DNA of 64,000 nt from an uncultured Opitutaceae bacterium (GTDB taxonomy: Bacteria > Verrucomicrobiota > Verrucomicrobiia > Opitutales > Opitutaceae), in contig OX638348.1 in NCBI GenBank assembly GCA_951813085.1, forward strand, positions 4,039,627-4,103,626, in the 5' to 3' direction. Below the pieces are notes generated by a model that was not told the origin of the DNA, did not search any database, and worked only from the letters and a program-made list of their open reading frames with translations. Positions 35,845 through 62,898 of the stretch are shown piece after piece. Every line of letters starts with the position of its first letter. Positions within the stretch are counted from its first letter, which is position 1. The translations under genes and the position numbers were made by a program.

Positions 35845-37497
<1,653 letters not shown>

Positions 37498-37565: not shown

Positions 37566-39158
37566 ATGCCGAAGTTGCTGATAGAAGTGCCGATCCCTTC
37601 AATGGGGGCGACTGTTAATGAGATCACCCTGATTGATCTCTTTTGCGAAGCGGGCCAATCCATTGAGAAAGGGGAGAAAATTGCGGAGCTCGAAAGCGAC
37701 AAGTCGATTTTCAATTTCGAGTCCCCATGCGATGGTATCATTGAGCGAATTTGCTGCCGGGCCGGGGACATCCTGAATGTAGGGGTTCCGTTTCTTAGAA
37801 TTAAGACCGATGACTCATCGATGAGCCACTTGGAGGTGGATGAAGCGAGCGAGGGCGCATGCGAAAATGCCGACGTTTCGGAGCCGCCGACAGCGCCAGT
37901 AGAAACTGCTGTGGCCCCGCTGATCGAAGTGTCACCCAAAAGCGCCGCTCCTGAGGTCAAATCCACGCAAGCGAGCAATTCTGCCTCTGGAGTCCGATGG
38001 ACGCCGAGAGCTCGCAAGATTGCCCTTGAGCGCGGCTTGGATCCAGAAGCGATTACAGATATCGTCGGAACAGGTCCTGGGGGCCGCATTACGGGAGATG
38101 ATCTGGATCGATACAAGGGAGCGGGTACATCAGGCGTCGCTGCTGCGTCCCAAGCGATTGACGCCACTCCCGACTCTCAGACAGTTTGCGTTGCAGGCAT
38201 TGGCTACGCCGTTCCGAAGAACGCGCGTTCGAACGAAGAGATACTCAAAGAGTTTCCCGGCAAGACTGCTGAAGAAATTGAAAAGGTGACCGGTATTCAG
38301 CAGCGCTACGTGATTAGCGACGGCGAATCGGCCACCAGCCTTGCGACTGAGGCGACGCGGAAAGCTCTGGAAATGTCGGGAATGTCGGTATCTGATATTG
38401 ATGCGGTGATTGTCGCGACCTTGCTTCCAGATCAACCCGTTCCCGGCGCTGCCAGCGCGTTGGCCAAGGAGTTAGGAATCGGCCAAGCATTGGCGTTCGA
38501 CTTGAATGCGGCCTGCTCGGGATGGCTCTACGCGCTCGAAGTGGGTCGTTCGTTCATCGTGGGCGGTACTGCAAAAAATGCGCTCGTAGTGACGGCGGAG
38601 ATACTTTCGAAAATCACAAACTCGAAAGACCATGAGACCGCATTTCTTTTTGGCGATGGCGCGGGCGCTGCAGTGATGACTCCGCAAGAAGGAGGCCATC
38701 GGTTTTATCGGCATGAACTGAGTGGAGATTCTCGGTATACGCAGGCGATTTGCAGAACGGGTGGCGGGGCCATGAATCCGATACCGCAACCTGGCGATAG
38801 CCTTGAGTCATTCTATATTCAACTCGATGGGGGCGTTGTATTTAAAAGAGCGGTACTTGCCTTTTCCGATATTATCGAAAGCGCGATGAAGCGGCATGGG
38901 CTTTCGGAGGAAGACGTGTCTTGGATTGTTCCTCATCAAGCGAATGCGCGAATACTGAAAGCCGTAAGCAAGCGTGTCGGAATCTCGTATGAGAAGTTTA
39001 TCGTCACCGTTGGTAAGTACGGCAATACCTCTGCGGCGTCGGTTTCCATGGCATTAGGATGGGCTGCCGAAGAAGGTATTTTCGAAGAAGGCGACAAGAT
39101 CATTTTCTGCTCGGTCGGGGCGGGATTCACCTACGCGGGCGGCTTGATGACTTGGTAG
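37566..39158 (+). CDS. Lipoyl domain - PSBD - beta-ketoacyl-ACP synthase III fusion
   Basis: A 530-aa protein with three parts. Residues ~1-82 are a biotinyl/lipoyl domain with the attachment motif ESDKS (Lys46) in the right beta-turn. Residues ~83-140 are an Ala/Pro/Ser linker typical of E2 chains. Residues ~142-184 are a peripheral-subunit-binding domain (WTPRARKIALERGLDPEAI, then VGTGPGGRITGDDLDRY). Residues ~206-530 are a complete FabH-type synthase with catalytic Cys317 (NAACSGW), His457 (PHQAN) and Asn487 (YGNTSAAS). FabH starts fatty-acid synthesis by condensing acyl-CoA with malonyl-ACP. The first two parts belong to 2-oxoacid dehydrogenase E2/E3BP subunits. The frame is continuous and linkers look natural, so it is not a frameshift artefact. 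Direct handover of an acyl group from lipoyl to FabH Cys is my inference. Confidence 0.88.
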   Translation: MPKLLIEVPIPSMGATVNEITLIDLFCEAGQSIEKGEKIAELESDKSIFNFESPCDGIIERICCRAGDILNVGVPFLRIKTDDSSMSHLEVDEASEGACENADVSEPPTAPVETAVAPLIEVSPKSAAPEVKSTQASNSASGVRWTPRARKIALERGLDPEAITDIVGTGPGGRITGDDLDRYKGAGTSGVAAASQAIDATPDSQTVCVAGIGYAVPKNARSNEEILKEFPGKTAEEIEKVTGIQQRYVISDGESATSLATEATRKALEMSGMSVSDIDAVIVATLLPDQPVPGAASALAKELGIGQALAFDLNAACSGWLYALEVGRSFIVGGTAKNALVVTAEILSKITNSKDHETAFLFGDGAGAAVMTPQEGGHRFYRHELSGDSRYTQAICRTGGGAMNPIPQPGDSLESFYIQLDGGVVFKRAVLAFSDIIESAMKRHGLSEEDVSWIVPHQANARILKAVSKRVGISYEKFIVTVGKYGNTSAASVSMALGWAAEEGIFEEGDKIIFCSVGAGFTYAGGLMTW

Positions 39159-39172
39159 ATGCGGGTGCTTGG

Positions 39173-39919
39173 CTAGCTATCGAATTCGTGGCGAAGAATG
39201 CTCAGGGCGCTCACCGCTGCCGTTTCGCATTTTAGAACGTAAGGGCCGAGCGTTACAGGCTGAAAGCGGGCCTTGTTGATGCGAGCGTATTCTGGATCGG
39301 AGAAATCCCCCTCAGGCCCAATCAATATCAGCGCTTTCTGCCCATCGTCTTTATCTGGATCACTGAGGGCCTTTTTTACCGGAACGCTCTCAGCCTGTAG
39401 CGAAGCGACGATTTTCGTGGCGAATTGCGGCGCGCTGGATTCGATAAACTGATCCAATCCTTGAGGATTGTGAATCGTTGGCAGGAAGGGATTTCCACTT
39501 TGCTTCGCTCCCTCGATCAAGGAAGAAACCCATTTGTCCAATTTAGACTGCAATCGATCACGCGGAATTTTCGCTTCTGTGCGGTCTGAGAGAATCGGGT
39601 AGATATGCTGGATACCAATCTCAGTTGCTTTGCGAATGATATTCTCGAGGCCTTTCCCTTTTGGGATGGCTTGCGCGAGGCCGATCTCGTGAATGGGTGG
39701 CGGATGTTTGATAAATGTGCGCCCTTGCAGAAGCGCGTGTCGCTTGTCCGAGTCGACGAGTTTGCAGGTCCATTCCTTTCCATTGCCGTCGAAGACGACA
39801 ACCGGATCCCCTGTTCGCGCCCGATTGGATGAGACTAGATGATGAGACTCGTCTGCGGATAGCCGTATCTCTGGCTGCTCTTCGGAGAGTATCGGGCAAT
39901 AGCTCCTAAAATCAGGCAT
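39173..39919 (-). CDS. rsmE: 16S rRNA m3U1498 methyltransferase
   Basis: A 248-aa SPOUT methyltransferase. N-terminal PUA-like region (RLSADESHHLVSSNRARTGDPVVVFDGNG), then LAQAIPKGKGLENIIRKATEIGI, the SAM-knot segment ALILIGPEGDFSDPEYARI and LGPYVLKCETAAVSAL at the C-terminus, all diagnostic for RsmE. It methylates N3 of U1498 in 16S rRNA. Complete, and convergent with the lipoyl-KAS fusion gene (14 bp between stops). Upstream lies the hairpin-rich spacer. Confidence 0.95.
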   Translation of the reverse strand: MPDFRSYCPILSEEQPEIRLSADESHHLVSSNRARTGDPVVVFDGNGKEWTCKLVDSDKRHALLQGRTFIKHPPPIHEIGLAQAIPKGKGLENIIRKATEIGIQHIYPILSDRTEAKIPRDRLQSKLDKWVSSLIEGAKQSGNPFLPTIHNPQGLDQFIESSAPQFATKIVASLQAESVPVKKALSDPDKDDGQKALILIGPEGDFSDPEYARINKARFQPVTLGPYVLKCETAAVSALSILRHEFDS

Positions 39920-40001: not shown

Positions 40002-40029
40002 AAAGGGCCCCGCTAAGCGGGACCCTTTC
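40002..40029. terminator. Hairpin unit 1 (bidirectional terminator-like)
   Basis: AAAGGGCCCCGC and its near complement GCGGGACCCTTT around loop TAA, with A/T flanks on both sides. Core CCGCTAAGCGG is shared with unit 2. It lies upstream of rsmE, so it would stop rightward read-through or end a small transcript. Confidence 0.7.
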
Positions 40030-40032
40030 TAA

Positions 40033-40227
40033 CTTATCAAACTACAAACCAGAATTTAGAAAAACTACAACTTCCTCATCTGCCTACGGTAGGCGCAGTC
40101 GGGACGAAAACGTTCAAATTAATTCCACATTCTTCTGGTTTTCGCTTCGTCCAGAGGGAATTTCTGGAAATTGGGCACTAAAAAAGCGCCGCTAAGCGGC
40201 GCTTTTTCGACTTATCAAACTACAAAC
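40033..40227 (+). repeat. 17-bp direct repeat following each hairpin
   Basis: CTTATCAAACTACAAAC occurs exactly at 40033-40049 and 40211-40227, in each case 3 to 4 bases after the hairpin unit. Hairpin plus 17-mer therefore form a duplicated module separated by about 130 bp of unrelated sequence. Its nature (duplicated sRNA terminator or other small element) is unknown. Confidence 0.8.
40181..40207. terminator. Hairpin unit 2 (bidirectional terminator-like)
   Basis: A perfect 12-bp stem, AAAAAGCGCCGC and GCGGCGCTTTTT, with loop TAA. A5 and T5 lie at the two bases of the stem, the classic form of a bidirectional Rho-independent terminator. It shares CCGCTAAGCGG with unit 1. Confidence 0.85.
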
Positions 40228-40783
40228 TAGATACGAAATATGAACAATACCCTACAAAATCGTTACTGAGATAGACGGTCCCGCTCCTAATACGTTCAAA
40301 ATGGCGGTAGAAAAATTAGCCGCTCTGCTATATTTATTTGTAAGAATTTATTTAACAACAACTTACGTTGAAATAAATTTGCGCTTAGTCTAGTGAGGAT
40401 CAAGCCAGAACCGGACTGATTGTCCGGTTGAGTGGAATGAAAACGGAAGCTCGCTCGTTGAGGAAACGTTCTGTTCAGCATTCGTGCGTCGGGGTAGTCC
40501 TGCTGAGCGTAAGGCGTCAACTTAACTATTGATGGCCGCATAGAGGTGCAAAAGATCACGATAATAGATACTGAACGCTGCGATCTTTGTGACTTTTCGC
40601 GCCTTTTTGTGGCTAAATCCCATTCATATCTGGACAAGTTGACGCCTATGCGCTGAGCGTGACTAAGTTTTGCTTATACTTAAATGGCTTGCCCGGGCGT
40701 AGCTTTCGGGTTGGGGGGAATCGTCCGGCTTCTCGTTGATACGCAGGGACAGGCTCCGTCTTCGGCTTACGCCTCGCGGAGCC

Positions 40784-46253: not shown

Positions 46254-47867
46254 ATGGCGAATCTTGAGGCAGTGAGCGCATTGGTGGTGGAGTCAGACAA
46301 CTCCCGGGCCAAGAAAATTGCGGCTTTGCTGCAAGCGACAGATGAGCTATCAGTATCTTGCGTATTCGCCCACAGCTTGTCGATTGCCCAGGCTACGATG
46401 ACGGAAAAGTCGGTCGATATCGTATTCACTGGTCTCGAATTGTCTGATGCTCGAGGGCTAGATTCACTGGTCGCCTTCAACGAGAGTCGCTCAAGCGTTC
46501 CCGTGGTCGTCGTCGCCGAAGGGAATGAGCCAGATGCGGTATTGGACGCTGCTAGAAGCCTATCGGATGATTGCCTTTTCTGGGAAGGTCTTTGCGAGCA
46601 GGATATGGTGCAGTCTTTGAGGTACGCTATAGAGCGCCAGAAACTCTTGGAGGAGTTGCGATCTAAGCGAATGCAGAACGGACCCCAGCAAGAGTTCTTT
46701 CGAGGCATAGTCGAAAGAATTGATGAAGCGATATTCGTCGTCGCTCGAGATTCAGGCTCCTTGCTCTACGCAAATGAAACCGCCAAGCGTTGGTATGGAG
46801 CCAATATGGGGGAGGCTCTCGAAGATGTACTTGAGTATGACCTGCTGGAAGCGGACGAAGTGGAAATGGAGATTTCCTCGCGTCATGCTTCCGTGACGCG
46901 GGTGGAGCTCCGTTCCTTATCGGCGAAATGGGGCGATATCTCAGCCTGCATGATATCAATGCGCGACCTGTCTAAGCAGAAGCGGGCTGAGGAGGCGTTC
47001 TTGGCCTGCCAGCGCCGCTTGGACTACTCGATTCGTGAATCGGGATTCTGGTGGTGGAATCTAACGAATGACGATATATCGTTCAGCAAGTCGTTTCGTA
47101 ACTGTCTTGGATACGAAGATTGGGAATATCAAAATTCTGTCGCCTCATTCGAGGAGTCATTGCATCCTGAGGACCGGGAAGAGACGCTTGCTCGATTTCG
47201 GAGTTTTGGGGAGTTGCCGATTGTTGATTTTGAAATTAAGTTTAGGATACGGGCGAGCGATGGGCTCTACTTGCAAGCGCTGACAAAGGGTGGGCTCGTT
47301 TCGAACGCCACATCAGGAAGCGTTGTTTACGCTGGTTCTTTGATACGTACGAGCGTAAGCCGTGAGCGTTTTGATTTCGAACCGCAGCTTGAAGAGTCTG
47401 GAGTGGTCGCTGATCCATTGGGCGATAGCAGTTTGAACCCCTCAGATACTCCGGATCATGGCGTTGCATTGATTGTGGATGATGAAGAGGTTTTGCGCAA
47501 AGCGCTCGAATCGATTCTATCGTCCTATGGCTTCGAAACAATTGTTGCCTCGGATGGCCAGGAAGGGATTTCTCTTTACGAATCACACCATGATCGAGTT
47601 AAAATCATAATTCTCGACATGAATATGCCGCGAGTCGACGGAGGTAAAGTTTTTCAACGTATTCGGGAAGATGGGGATCGTATCCCCATAATCATGACAA
47701 GTGGGAATGACGACAAGCAAGCATTGCCTTTCGTTGAAGGCGAAGATAAGAACTGCGAATTCCTATTGAAGCCTTTCGGACTGGCTGAAGTAAAAGAAAT
47801 CGTCGAGCGGTATTTGGCTGCGAGTAAAGTCCCTGCTAAACCTGCTTCGACAGCGGGGACATCCTAG
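46254..47867 (+). CDS. PAS-receiver signalling protein without kinase domain
   Basis: A 537-aa protein. Residues ~1-125 are a receiver-like domain lacking the phospho-acceptor (VDIVFTGLELSD where DLVLLDLxLPD is usual). Residues ~150-245 and ~255-375 are PAS/PAC domains (AIFVVARDSGSLLYANETA; RLDYSIRESGFWWWNLTNDD, then the PAS_3-like SLHPEDREETLARF). Residues ~405-530 are a canonical receiver with IVDDEE, ILDMNMP (acceptor Asp), MTSG and LLKPFG. No histidine kinase or output domain is present, so it must relay or titrate phosphate from other proteins. Its TAG shares the palindrome CTAG with the stop of the convergent E2 gene. Confidence 0.85.
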   Translation: MANLEAVSALVVESDNSRAKKIAALLQATDELSVSCVFAHSLSIAQATMTEKSVDIVFTGLELSDARGLDSLVAFNESRSSVPVVVVAEGNEPDAVLDAARSLSDDCLFWEGLCEQDMVQSLRYAIERQKLLEELRSKRMQNGPQQEFFRGIVERIDEAIFVVARDSGSLLYANETAKRWYGANMGEALEDVLEYDLLEADEVEMEISSRHASVTRVELRSLSAKWGDISACMISMRDLSKQKRAEEAFLACQRRLDYSIRESGFWWWNLTNDDISFSKSFRNCLGYEDWEYQNSVASFEESLHPEDREETLARFRSFGELPIVDFEIKFRIRASDGLYLQALTKGGLVSNATSGSVVYAGSLIRTSVSRERFDFEPQLEESGVVADPLGDSSLNPSDTPDHGVALIVDDEEVLRKALESILSSYGFETIVASDGQEGISLYESHHDRVKIIILDMNMPRVDGGKVFQRIREDGDRIPIIMTSGNDDKQALPFVEGEDKNCEFLLKPFGLAEVKEIVERYLAASKVPAKPASTAGTS

Positions 47868-49138
47868 AGGAAGATCAATGCGGGATGTTCCAGTATCTTT
47901 TTTAGAGCCTGGATATACTCAGCTCCGACTGCGCCGTCGACTACGCGGTGATCGCAGCTTAGGCCGATCTTCATTATTTGCCCAACTTCGATATTTCCGC
48001 TTTCCCGTACAACGGGACGTGCGAACGTAGCGCCTACCGAAAGTATGCCGGCATTGGGCGTATTGATTATGCCGTAGAATACGGACACTCCATACATGCC
48101 GAGATTGGTAACGGTGAACGTGCTCCCCGACATTTCATTGGGAGAGAGTTTTTTAGATCTCGCTTTGGCGATGAGCGCTTTCGCTTCGACGGCGATTGTC
48201 TTTAGCGATTTCGCATCTGCGTTCTTAATAACAGGGGTAAGGAGGCCATCTTCTATTGCTACACCGAAGGCGATGTCCACTGAGCTGTGCTGCTTTATAG
48301 ACGTTCGAGCCCAAGAGCGATTCATGGCGGGCACGCGCCTCAATGCTTCGGTCGCTGCCTTGAGAATAAAGTCGTTTACGGAAAGCTTTACGCCTCCCTC
48401 CTCGGGTGTTAGCTCGGCCAGTTCCGCATTGAGTTGCTTCCGCAATTCAAGAAGGCCTCCCACGTCGATTTCCGACTCGAGGTAAAAATGAGGGGCCTCG
48501 CGTTTACTTTCTTGGAGGCGTTCAGCAATAATCGCTCGCATCTGAGAAAGGGGTACCTCTTCAGCTTTTGCGATACCTGCGCCGGAGCCGGCGCTTGCGG
48601 GCGCTGTGCCGCGCGTTACCGCTGCGCCTTCAAGGTCTTTCTTAACGATTCTACCGTTGGGGCCGGAACCAGAAATTTGGACCAGGTCGATGCCTTGTTG
48701 CGCTGCGAGCTTTCTTGCAAGAGGGGAGGCCTTGATTCGTTCGCTTGAAGGCTTTGCGGGATCGGATTCGGTCGAGGCTGGCGCGGGTGGGTGAGAAGAA
48801 TCGGAATCTGCAGATTCTTTGGTTGGCTCTGAATCGGGTTCGACTTTTTCCTCTGATTCGTCTGCGGGCGCGGGGCTCGCTTCAATCTCGACCGATTCAC
48901 CTGCTTCGCCGATCGCTGCGATAGGTGAACCCACCGGGACTTGGGCTCCCGTTGCCGCGATTTGCTTTAAGAGCACACCTTCTTCAAAGGCTTCAAGCTC
49001 CATGGTCGCCTTGTCTGTTTCGATCTCGGCGATAACATCGCCGGACTCTATTGTGGCGCCTTCGTTTTTCAGCCAATTCGCGACAGTACCTACTGTCATG
49101 GTATCGCTGAGTTTGGGCATATCGATTATGGTAGCCAT
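47864..49138 (-). CDS. pdhC: Pyruvate dehydrogenase E2 (dihydrolipoamide acetyltransferase)
   Basis: A 424-aa E2. N-terminal lipoyl domain with ETDKATMELEAFEEG (Lys is the lipoylation site), an acidic Pro/Ser/Glu linker, a peripheral-subunit-binding domain (IKASPLARKLAAQQGIDLVQI), and a catalytic acyltransferase domain ending GLSCDHRVVDGAVGAEYI with the active His and Asp. It passes acetyl groups from E1 to CoA. The gene is last in the E1alpha-E1beta-E2 cluster (26-46 bp gaps). The E3 gene is not in the window. Its lipoyl and PSBD sequences differ clearly from those of the KAS fusion protein, so that protein is not a recent copy. Confidence 0.95.
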   Translation of the reverse strand: MATIIDMPKLSDTMTVGTVANWLKNEGATIESGDVIAEIETDKATMELEAFEEGVLLKQIAATGAQVPVGSPIAAIGEAGESVEIEASPAPADESEEKVEPDSEPTKESADSDSSHPPAPASTESDPAKPSSERIKASPLARKLAAQQGIDLVQISGSGPNGRIVKKDLEGAAVTRGTAPASAGSGAGIAKAEEVPLSQMRAIIAERLQESKREAPHFYLESEIDVGGLLELRKQLNAELAELTPEEGGVKLSVNDFILKAATEALRRVPAMNRSWARTSIKQHSSVDIAFGVAIEDGLLTPVIKNADAKSLKTIAVEAKALIAKARSKKLSPNEMSGSTFTVTNLGMYGVSVFYGIINTPNAGILSVGATFARPVVRESGNIEVGQIMKIGLSCDHRVVDGAVGAEYIQALKKILEHPALIFL

Positions 49139-49184
49139 GATAAATTAGATTGGTTCGTTCCTTAGATTGTTCTTTGCGTAATCG

Positions 49185-50159
49185 TCAGCAGATTTCCAAT
49201 ACTTTCTTAACTACGACGTTGGGTTTTGGGAGCTGCGCTTCCTCTAGAGGAGGGCTGTAGACTGCCGGGGCGTCGATGGCGGAAACACGTTGCACAGGAG
49301 CATCCAGGTAATCGAATGCGTGGGCTTGAATTAGATAGGCGATTTGCGCATCGACTCCGCAAAACGGCTTGTTCTCTTCTACAAGCACGGCTCGATTCGT
49401 TTTCTTCACGGAATTCAATAGGGTCTCCTCGTCGAGGGGCCGGATTGAGCGCAGGTCCACTACTTCGGCGTCGATCGAGTGTTCCGATTTCAGGATGTTT
49501 GCGGCTTCCAAGCAGACCAGCACTGAAGGACCATGGGCGATAAGCGAAATGTCAGAGCCTTCGCGTTTAACATCCGCCTTGCCAAGCGGTATGACGTAGT
49601 CTTCCTCCGGAACCTCTCCAACATCGTTGTACATGATGGTGCTTTCCATGACGTATACGGGGTCGTTGTCGCGAATGGCAGCTTTGAGGAGTCCTTTGGC
49701 GTCGTATGGAGATGCTGGGCAGACAACCTTAAGGCCGGGTGTATTAGCTATGAAATTTTCGGGCGTATGCGAATGAGTGGCTCCTACTCCGGTACCGCCG
49801 TTGGCCGGGCCGCGTATTACGACAGGGACATTGATTTTTCCTCCGGACATGTACCGTACACTCGCCGCGTTGTTGATGATTTGGTCCCAAGCAACGTAGG
49901 CGAAACTCCAGAACATAAGTTCCATGACAGGACGTATCCCAAGCATGGATGCGCCGATTCCCATGCCTATGAATCCCGCTTCGCTGATGGGAGCGTCGAC
50001 GATTCGCTTTGGGCCAAATTGCTTTAGCAATCCTTCTGTGACTTTGTAGGCCCCATTGTACTCCGCGACTTCTTCGCCAATAATGACGACGTTATCGTCT
50101 CGCTGGAGTTCTTCAATCATTGCGTCTTTCAACGCTTGTCGGTAGCTGATTTCTGGCAT
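49185..50159 (-). CDS. pdhB: Pyruvate dehydrogenase E1 beta subunit
   Basis: A 324-aa transketolase-like subunit. ISYRQALKDAMIEELQRDD, then VVIIGEEVAEYNGAYKVTEGLL with the cofactor Glu, RIVDAPISEAGFIGMGIGASM, and the C-terminal VEENKPFCGVDAQIAYLI. With E1alpha it forms the thiamine-diphosphate heterotetramer that decarboxylates pyruvate and reductively acetylates the E2 lipoyl group. Length and gene order are standard. Confidence 0.95.
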   Translation of the reverse strand: MPEISYRQALKDAMIEELQRDDNVVIIGEEVAEYNGAYKVTEGLLKQFGPKRIVDAPISEAGFIGMGIGASMLGIRPVMELMFWSFAYVAWDQIINNAASVRYMSGGKINVPVVIRGPANGGTGVGATHSHTPENFIANTPGLKVVCPASPYDAKGLLKAAIRDNDPVYVMESTIMYNDVGEVPEEDYVIPLGKADVKREGSDISLIAHGPSVLVCLEAANILKSEHSIDAEVVDLRSIRPLDEETLLNSVKKTNRAVLVEENKPFCGVDAQIAYLIQAHAFDYLDAPVQRVSAIDAPAVYSPPLEEAQLPKPNVVVKKVLEIC

Positions 50160-50199
50160 GTTCGTTCGCTAAAATTTGTATCGAATATTAAGGTACCGA

Positions 50200-51315
50200 T
50201 TAGTCATTAAAGAATATGCGCCCTTGGGATAACTTTTCATCTGGATTGTCTTCTTCCCAGTAAACGTCTTTCACGATATCTTCTTCTTTCGGGAAGCCGC
50301 TCTCTTCCGCGAATTTCGCGGACTGCTCGGCCTCGGCCTTTGCCGCCAGATCAATTTCCTTCACTTGCTCCTCGTTCAGCAGCTTGGATTTCAAGACGAA
50401 TTCCCTGTAGAGCGTGATGGGGTCATGATTCTTGCGATAGTCGTCAATCTCTTCCTTGGTGCGGTATTTCTTATGGTTCGCATCGGCAATCGAGTGCCCT
50501 TGGTAGCGATACGTATGTATTTCGAGAAGAGAGGGCTTGGATTCCGATCGGGCGAGGTCCATCGCTTTCTTGACGCCTTCCCGAATATCGAAAATCGATT
50601 CTCCATTTATTTTCGCCCAGTTCATGTTGTATCCTTCTGCTCGAGCGGCAAGCCCGACTTCGGGATGCACGCTGGACCGTTCCTGGGACGTTCCCATCGA
50701 GTAACCATTGTTTTCGATTATGTATACGACGGGCAAATTCCAAAGGGATGCGATATTGAGGGACTCGTGGAATGCGCCTTGATTGATCGCGCCGTCTCCG
50801 AGAAAGCATAGAGTGCATCCTTTCTTTTCTTGATATTTGAGCGCGTACGCCAGTCCTGCTCCAAGCGGGGTTTGCCCTGCTACGATGCCATGCCCTCCCC
50901 AAAATCGCTTCGATGGATCGAAGTAGTGCATGGATCCTCCTTTGCCTTTCGAGCAACCCGTCTCTTTGCCTAGAAGCTCCGCCATGCACTCGTCCATGGA
51001 CATCCCTACCGCCAGGGCGTGTCCATGATCGCGATACGCGGTAATGACATGGTCATTCTCTTTCATTAAGGAGATGCAACCCACGGCTATGGACTCCTGG
51101 CCAATGTACAGATGCAGGAAACCCGCTATCTTGCCTTGCTGATACGCTCTCAATGACCTTTCCTCGAATCGGCGAATTCGAATCATGTCGCGGTAAAATC
51201 CGACTAGCTCCTCATCGGTTAACCCGGCGTTAGCGGGCGTCTTCGCTTCTTTGGACAGATTTGCCTTAGCAGGCTTTCGTCGACCAGGTTTCTTGGTTGC
51301 GGTAGTGTTTGTCAC
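50200..51315 (-). CDS. pdhA: Pyruvate dehydrogenase E1 alpha subunit
   Basis: A 371-aa subunit with a ~30-residue basic N-terminal extension (KKPGRRKPAKANLSKEAKT). Core motifs are MIRIRRFEERSLRAYQQGKI, HLYIGQESIAVG, and the thiamine-diphosphate signature GDGAINQGAFHESLNIASLW ending in IIENNGYSMGTS. The phosphorylation-loop-like HSIADANHKKYRTKEEI is also present. It is the first gene of the E1alpha-E1beta-E2 cluster, about 100 bp downstream of the Nudix gene. Substrate pyruvate rather than a branched oxoacid is inferred from motif similarity. Confidence 0.95.
   Translation of the reverse strand: MTNTTATKKPGRRKPAKANLSKEAKTPANAGLTDEELVGFYRDMIRIRRFEERSLRAYQQGKIAGFLHLYIGQESIAVGCISLMKENDHVITAYRDHGHALAVGMSMDECMAELLGKETGCSKGKGGSMHYFDPSKRFWGGHGIVAGQTPLGAGLAYALKYQEKKGCTLCFLGDGAINQGAFHESLNIASLWNLPVVYIIENNGYSMGTSQERSSVHPEVGLAARAEGYNMNWAKINGESIFDIREGVKKAMDLARSESKPSLLEIHTYRYQGHSIADANHKKYRTKEEIDDYRKNHDPITLYREFVLKSKLLNEEQVKEIDLAAKAEAEQSAKFAEESGFPKEEDIVKDVYWEEDNPDEKLSQGRIFFND

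Positions 51316-62822: not shown

Positions 62823-62898
<76 letters not shown>

Follow-up and report, generated by a model that had tools for sequence, protein, structure and literature searches.

In the standard scheme, acyl-CoA is both the end product of 2-oxoacid dehydrogenase complexes and the starting material of fatty-acid synthesis. In the Bacillus type, a branched-chain 2-oxoacid dehydrogenase feeds FabH through acyl-CoA. The E2 component of such dehydrogenases has the order lipoyl-PSBD-CAT, with a lipoyl domain, a peripheral-subunit-binding domain (PSBD) and the CoA-acyltransferase (CAT) domain. FabH is a KAS III with the catalytic triad Cys-His-Asn (C112, H244 and N274 in E. coli) and with K214 and R249, which we take to be its ACP-facing residues, and it is known to have a transacylase side activity. 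For the E. coli type, the accessible part of PMC4606726 describes how CoA is held: T28 and W32 lie with the adenine, R151 is the stacking residue and R36 is on the pantetheine.

In Streptomyces, similar parts are grouped in the gene clusters for polyoxypeptin and aurantimycin, for which the available portions of PMC3943440 and PMC5031334 report an orf5-10 operon. There, orf6-10 encode a KAS III of 312 aa, an ACP of 82 aa, a 'dihydrolipoamide succinyltransferase' of 82 or 77 aa, an E1 beta of 326 aa and an E1 alpha of 303 or 279 aa, and are thought to make an Ile- or Val-derived branched malonyl-ACP unit; in the same portions, the authors do not propose a transfer from lipoyl to KAS III. We infer that the 82/77-aa 'E2' is a lone lipoyl domain, because its size is too small for CAT and leaves no further room. 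The KS III-like acyltransferases ChlB3 and CerJ also share the KAS III fold. According to the accessible part of PMC9573744, their triad is Cys-His-Asp and a carrier protein serves ChlB3 as acyl donor, and no lipoyl or PSBD domain is mentioned there.

Our analysis concerns a window of 64,000 nucleotides (the whole stretch of DNA that was analysed), in which one gene joins the front part of an E2 to a KAS III. Its features are as follows.

37566..39158, + strand: lipoyl-PSBD-KAS III fusion gene, 530 aa (ORF, family matches, homologues)
37584..37802, + strand: lipoyl domain, aa 7-79 (Pfam Biotin_lipoyl, 1.3e-12)
37701..37703, + strand: Lys46 codon; predicted site of lipoylation, within LESDKS (sequence)
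37803..37997, + strand: Ala/Pro/Ser/Glu-rich E2-style linker, aa 80-144 (sequence; variable in the alignment)
37998..38105, + strand: PSBD (E3-binding domain), aa 145-180 (Pfam E3_binding, 2.7e-11)
38181..39155, + strand: KAS III domain, aa 206-530 (NCBIfam NF006829, 8.3e-96; best PDB FabH chain, 2.1e-59)
38262..38288, + strand: former CoA-nucleotide site, K233, E237 and V241 replacing FabH T28, W32 and R36 (alignment)
38514..38516, + strand: catalytic Cys317, E. coli C112 (alignment)
38631..38633, + strand: His356 replacing FabH R151, the adenine-stacking Arg (alignment)
38934..38936, + strand: catalytic His457, E. coli H244 (alignment)
39024..39026, + strand: catalytic Asn487, E. coli N274 (alignment)

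The gene is a single open frame with an ATG start and no break. Like an E2, it has by sequence a lipoyl domain with a DK motif, a flexible linker and a PSBD; unlike E2, it has no 2-oxoacid_dh (CAT) domain (PF00198, Pfam at E<=1), and a ketosynthase stands in its place, with Pfam matches to ACP_syn_III at aa 311-386 (4.8e-25) and ACP_syn_III_C at aa 442-530 (2.8e-29). The score against the NCBIfam KAS III model NF006829 is above the cut-off (320.7 bits, cut-off 249) and that against the fabH model TIGR00747 slightly below it (283.2 bits, cut-off 292.1), with 33-38% identity to stand-alone FabHs. Lys46 is invariant, [LFM]ESDKS being found in 81/81 distinct lipoyl segments that passed a filter leaving out those below 36% identity or with a late start. 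The AlphaFold model of the fusion (13 sequences) is poor, with a mean pLDDT of 62.8 and a pTM of 0.50, aa 95-141 being of low confidence. On the whole, what an earlier note had read at this locus, namely an uninterrupted 530-aa frame of lipoyl domain, linker, PSBD and KAS III, Lys46 within ESDKS, all three catalytic residues in the FabH part (C317/H457/N487) and no acyltransferase domain, agrees with the ORF, Pfam, NCBIfam and alignment results. This domain order recurs in 12 named Verrucomicrobia contigs and many further genomes, which rules out a chance ORF or a misassembly. The fusion is real.

The fusion is present in three families of the order, and its named carriers are Opitutales, including Pelagicoccus. 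Among 38 genomes, the window's own included, the full one-frame fusion is found in 10 of the genus and in 9 others; one further genome has a frame break (G008), two have two genes (G013 and G016), two have contig-end fragments (G021 and G024), and such a KAS III is absent from the other 14. A sample of 387 genomes of the phylum contained 21 with a match at E<=1e-90, all within the window's own family, 16 of them with fused and 5 with split forms (G013, G016, G314, G192 and G379). Two other families of the order, f8 and f95, have fusions as well. In the split lineages, the lipoyl-PSBD and the KAS III are two adjacent genes, and in G013 their ORFs as listed share 4 bases. The KAS III tree places the lipoyl-type enzymes in one clade (100/100), in which five split members cluster (100/99) within a larger group that also contains fused ones (96/96), so the split of these five is probably derived; 8 further split pairs are absent from the tree. 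Two draft copies are interrupted: that of G431 (L261:1330-2934) has an in-frame stop, and that of UBA7389/G008 (L016:5986-7915), one of the 12 named contigs, is the copy with the frame break. Outside the phylum, coverage consisted of plasmid records and a contig scan reaching close relatives only, and of the 501 plasmid records that match the fusion none covers 80% of it. A literature search, in which subscription journals were thinly covered, gave no naming of such a fusion; one review that was checked deals with other KAS IIIs.

Two genes frequently neighbour the fusion.

35869..37497, + strand: pyrG (CTP synthase), 68 bp upstream of the fusion (named from sequence)
39173..39919, - strand: rsmE-type rRNA methyltransferase, convergent (Pfam Methyltrans_RNA)

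No terminator-like site was found in the 68-bp gap between pyrG and the fusion, and a functional link is not implied by this position. The f8 genome G031 has the order pyrG-kdsA-fusion-rsmE. In the stretch around the fusion, pyrG was not seen in G014, G012, G015 and at a second copy of G009. This second copy (L043:9327-10979) is divergent, being 60% identical to the window's, lies away from pyrG and adjoins an oppositely oriented gene, a TetR-type regulator by eye.

We then compared 37 distinct lipoyl-type KAS IIIs with 27 stand-alone FabHs, which include that of E. coli and the one encoded beside plsX in the window's genome, a gene separate from the fusion. As in FabH, the triad C112, H244 and N274 as well as K214 and R249 are retained in all 37, Asn included at the position where ChlB3 and CerJ have Asp. 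Unlike in FabH, the residues T28, W32, R36 and R151 are replaced in 37/37, whereas all 27 stand-alone FabHs retain them; T28 becomes K/R/M/E, W32 becomes E/D/A, R36 becomes V/L/I/T and R151 becomes H/P/Y. F304, invariant like these four across the 27 FabHs, becomes V. The four CoA residues are also gone in a further 28/28 complete rows, at least three of which come from genomes already counted. Overall, 19 of 317 positions separate the two groups, and they include 4 of the 6 CoA contacts named in the accessible part of PMC4606726 (hypergeometric 1.3e-4, a figure to be read with the loss of the CoA site being one ancestral change, not many). Judged by these residues, the lipoyl-type KAS III is predicted not to bind CoA in the FabH manner. 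Of 11 other KAS IIIs from the order, 9 likewise have no W32, so the loss argues against FabH-like use of CoA and not for lipoyl.

The possible sources of acyl groups are the following.

47864..51315, - strand: Pdh operon, with E2 at 47864-49138, E1 beta at 49185-50159 and E1 alpha at 50200-51315
G000:C1:4571481-4573535, - strand: orphan E1(alpha-beta), 685 aa (E1_dh + Transket_pyr + Transketolase_C)

Pdh genes had been placed 10 kb from the fusion in the earlier note; they are present, at a measured distance of about 8.7 kb, and a role as partner finds no support, the operon having its own complete E2. We rejected it as the likely partner, because the E1 that co-occurs with the fusion is moreover encoded elsewhere. 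The partner is probably this orphan E1. In the window's one-contig genome, three 2-oxoacid dehydrogenase E1s are above the Pfam cut-off (Pdh, 2-oxoglutarate and the orphan), and there are only two CAT-bearing E2s, which adjoin the Pdh and the 2-oxoglutarate E1s. No E2 is found beside the orphan E1; its flanking ORFs are, by eye, dnaA, hprK, an ABC ATPase and a helix-turn-helix gene. The orphan E1 is about 493 kb from the fusion in this genome, and 10-18 kb from it in G001, G002, G006, G009 and G022.

The same holds for other carriers. We surveyed 28 genomes, and an extra E1 is found in 17/17 of the fused or split ones, with none of their E2s belonging to it by position. Two E2s are present in each of these 17 except G006 (one), G031 (none) and G016 (three, one of them in a separate 1,140-aa E1-E2 chain), and a Pdh-type E1 is present in 15, none being seen in G006 and G031. 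In seven of the 11 surveyed genomes without the protein (G019, G020, G025, G027, G028, G034 and G036), an E1(alpha-beta) is joined to an E2 or adjoins one; in G026, the E1 is separate and made of two genes, and its contig gave no E2 match; the extra E1 was not seen in the remaining three (G032, G033 and G035). A search with the orphan E1 gave an ortholog of 54-100% identity in 17/17 fused or split genomes tested, in two pieces in G013; this set shares six genomes with the 17 surveyed before. Of the 11 genomes newly surveyed for E2s here, 10 have two and G314 has three. The orphan E1s form a clade of their own, separate from the other E1s compared. Their E1 alpha loop reads GHA(A/G)YDT in 34/34 rows (for example L066:5479-7536), the usual loop being GHS-x-SD, and this might be relevant to lipoyl-domain recognition. 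Several families of the order also have all-in-one 2-oxoacid dehydrogenases of about 1,000-1,140 aa (L074:3991-7002, L078:5063-8167, L085:3965-7384, L098, L099 and L100), which consist of E1 alpha-beta, a lipoyl domain and a divergent CAT domain; Pfam finds no PSBD in L074.

With a probability of about 0.62, we propose that the lipoyl arm of the fusion feeds its KAS III from the orphan E1, and that acyl chains are thus started from a 2-oxoacid without acyl-CoA. The fusion would be a kind of E2 in which a ketosynthase has taken the place of the CoA-acyltransferase core. The orphan E1 would decarboxylate the 2-oxoacid and reductively acylate the lipoyl group on Lys46, with the PSBD holding E1 and/or E3. 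The acyl-dihydrolipoyl arm would then enter the KAS III tunnel, the mouth of which is without the CoA-nucleotide-binding residues, and pass its acyl group to Cys317, after which the His/Asn pair would condense it with malonyl-ACP to 3-oxoacyl-ACP and E3 would reoxidise the arm. Fatty-acid or related acyl chains might in this way begin from the 2-oxoacid. The direct hand-over to the KAS III Cys bypassing CoA, which was the core idea of the earlier note, is plausible and gains support from the lost CoA site, the orphan E1 and the Streptomyces gene sets; a partnership with the nearby Pdh operon gains none. Like the fusion system, the Streptomyces operons group a KAS III, a short 'E2' and an E1; unlike it, their parts are separate genes of secondary metabolism, and no PSBD is reported in the accessible text. 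By analogy, these operons would be an independent grouping of the same parts. The proposed route would resemble the Bacillus type in supplying iso/anteiso starters, and would differ from it in needing no E2 and no CoA thioester. If this reading is true, one protein joins a dehydrogenase to the start of fatty-acid synthesis by a lipoyl arm and bypasses the shared acyl-CoA pool, a cell could set its choice of starter by the specificity of E1, and a ready-made module for branched or unusual chains is at hand.

The E1 and the lipoyl-PSBD go together. Our prediction that family members without this KAS III would lack the orphan E1 was wrong, as 14 of 16 had it. After this failure, a stand-alone lipoyl-PSBD gene was found in all 14, which follows pyrG and kdsA, has no KAS III next to it and is near rsmE in the 12 stretches where rsmE was seen. 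A KAS III of lipoyl type is nowhere in these 14 genomes. Their FabH-level KAS III keeps W32, R36 and R151 in 14/14; among their more distant KAS IIIs, L208, L209 and L210 are without W32, and L212 keeps W32 and has lost R36 and R151. No PSBD outside E2 frames is found in the four E1-less genomes tested (G053, G305, G019 and G020). Overall, the E1 is found in 86 of 372 genomes searched. For a later set, 33 were taken from the 47 genomes of the order in which the E1 had newly been found, including the already known fusion carrier G691 (DG1235), together with 6 E1-less ones, four of which (G025, G033, G034 and G035) had previously been examined with other queries. A non-E2 PSBD is present in 31 of the 33 and in 0 of the 6 (Fisher p = 8.6e-6, the relatedness of the genomes being ignored). 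The lipoyl-PSBD was not found in E1-bearing G470 and G473, drafts of 390 and 900 contigs. Among the 31 loci, 18 are fused (one truncated at the end of its contig), 1 has an in-frame stop, 8 are split with the KAS III adjacent, and 4 have the lipoyl-PSBD only, within the stretch read. Thus E1 and lipoyl-PSBD form a pair, to which the KAS III is added as a third partner in most. The 14 genomes count against our proposal, since the two must there have some function or past in which this KAS III plays no part. It is possible, though we hold it only tentatively, that the whole is a CoA-free branch of the 2-oxoacid dehydrogenases, in which a lipoyl carrier loaded by E1 would pass acyl groups directly to a ketosynthase and so couple oxidative decarboxylation to chain initiation. 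After splitting of the genes and loss of the special KAS III, the stand-alone lipoyl-PSBD would then be a free acyl carrier supplying another acceptor, such as the general FabH.

As for the substrate, our main reading, transfer from the orphan E1 to the KAS III, goes most readily with branched 2-oxoacids from Val, Leu and Ile, although this points only weakly to iso/anteiso starters. For the alpha half of the orphan E1, human BCKDH is the closest match at 102.9 bits, the highest-scoring bacterial PDH entry reaching 88.4, and for the beta half BCKDH-type and PDH structures match almost equally. DG1235 has only two E2s, as does one Pelagicoccus genome of two; the other Pelagicoccus has a third, divergent one, and P. 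mobilis is listed with anteiso-C15:0 in the accessible part of PMC13274419. Lacunisphaera limnophila, however, has 48.6% iso-C15:0 (PMC5303756), and in its genome (G305) no orphan E1 and no lipoyl-PSBD are found, so branched lipids can be made without the system. Branched fatty acids were accordingly dropped as a marker of it, since they are also contained in Puniceicoccus and Coraliomargarita and are not diagnostic. A supply of branched starters is still the likely purpose, but a weak one, because species without the system branch too and the E1 is only slightly more BCKDH-like than PDH.

A variant that does not exclude the main reading, and that we consider unlikely, keeps the same mechanism with acetyl from pyruvate, by way of the orphan or the nearby Pdh E1. 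In NCBIfam, each half of the orphan E1 is best matched by PDH models, none of which reaches its cut-off, and the Pdh genes are not far from the fusion. G006 and G031, having no Pdh-type E1 seen, are genomes where the orphan E1 might act on pyruvate. In G031 and G466 (L039 and L252, genus g22), moreover, the only PSBD found is that of the fusion. Against acetyl stand the separate Pdh-type E1 in the 15 other surveyed carriers, the E2 of the Pdh operon itself, the BCKDH-like alpha half and the Streptomyces precedents, which in the text available concern Ile- and Val-derived units.

Still less probable is that the KAS III domain is a transacylase, moving acyl groups from the lipoyl arm to ACP or another thiol with no condensation; a KAS III-like acyltransferase would then have taken over from CAT. 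The lost CoA site would suit such an enzyme, as would the existence of KS III-like acyltransferases and the side activity of FabH noted above. The Cys-His-Asn triad in 37/37 members, with Asn where ChlB3 has Asp, nevertheless speaks for condensation over simple transfer.

Least probable, in our view, is that the lipoyl-PSBD is a tether or redox arm only, placing the KAS III on a dehydrogenase/E3 assembly or protecting its Cys while acyl groups still come as acyl-CoA or acyl-ACP: the lipoyl-PSBD does persist without this KAS III in the 14 genomes and probably in 4 more, but the CoA-nucleotide residues are gone, Lys46 is invariant and an E1 without E2 co-occurs.

Elsewhere in the window, two G+C-rich hairpins are located just upstream of the rsmE-type gene, at 40002-40053 and 40181-40231. 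They match no Rfam family. A 22-nt sequence comes after each of them, almost unchanged between the two (95% identity), at a spacing of 178-179 bp. In addition, a tRNA-Met (cat) gene is found at 62824-62898 on the - strand.
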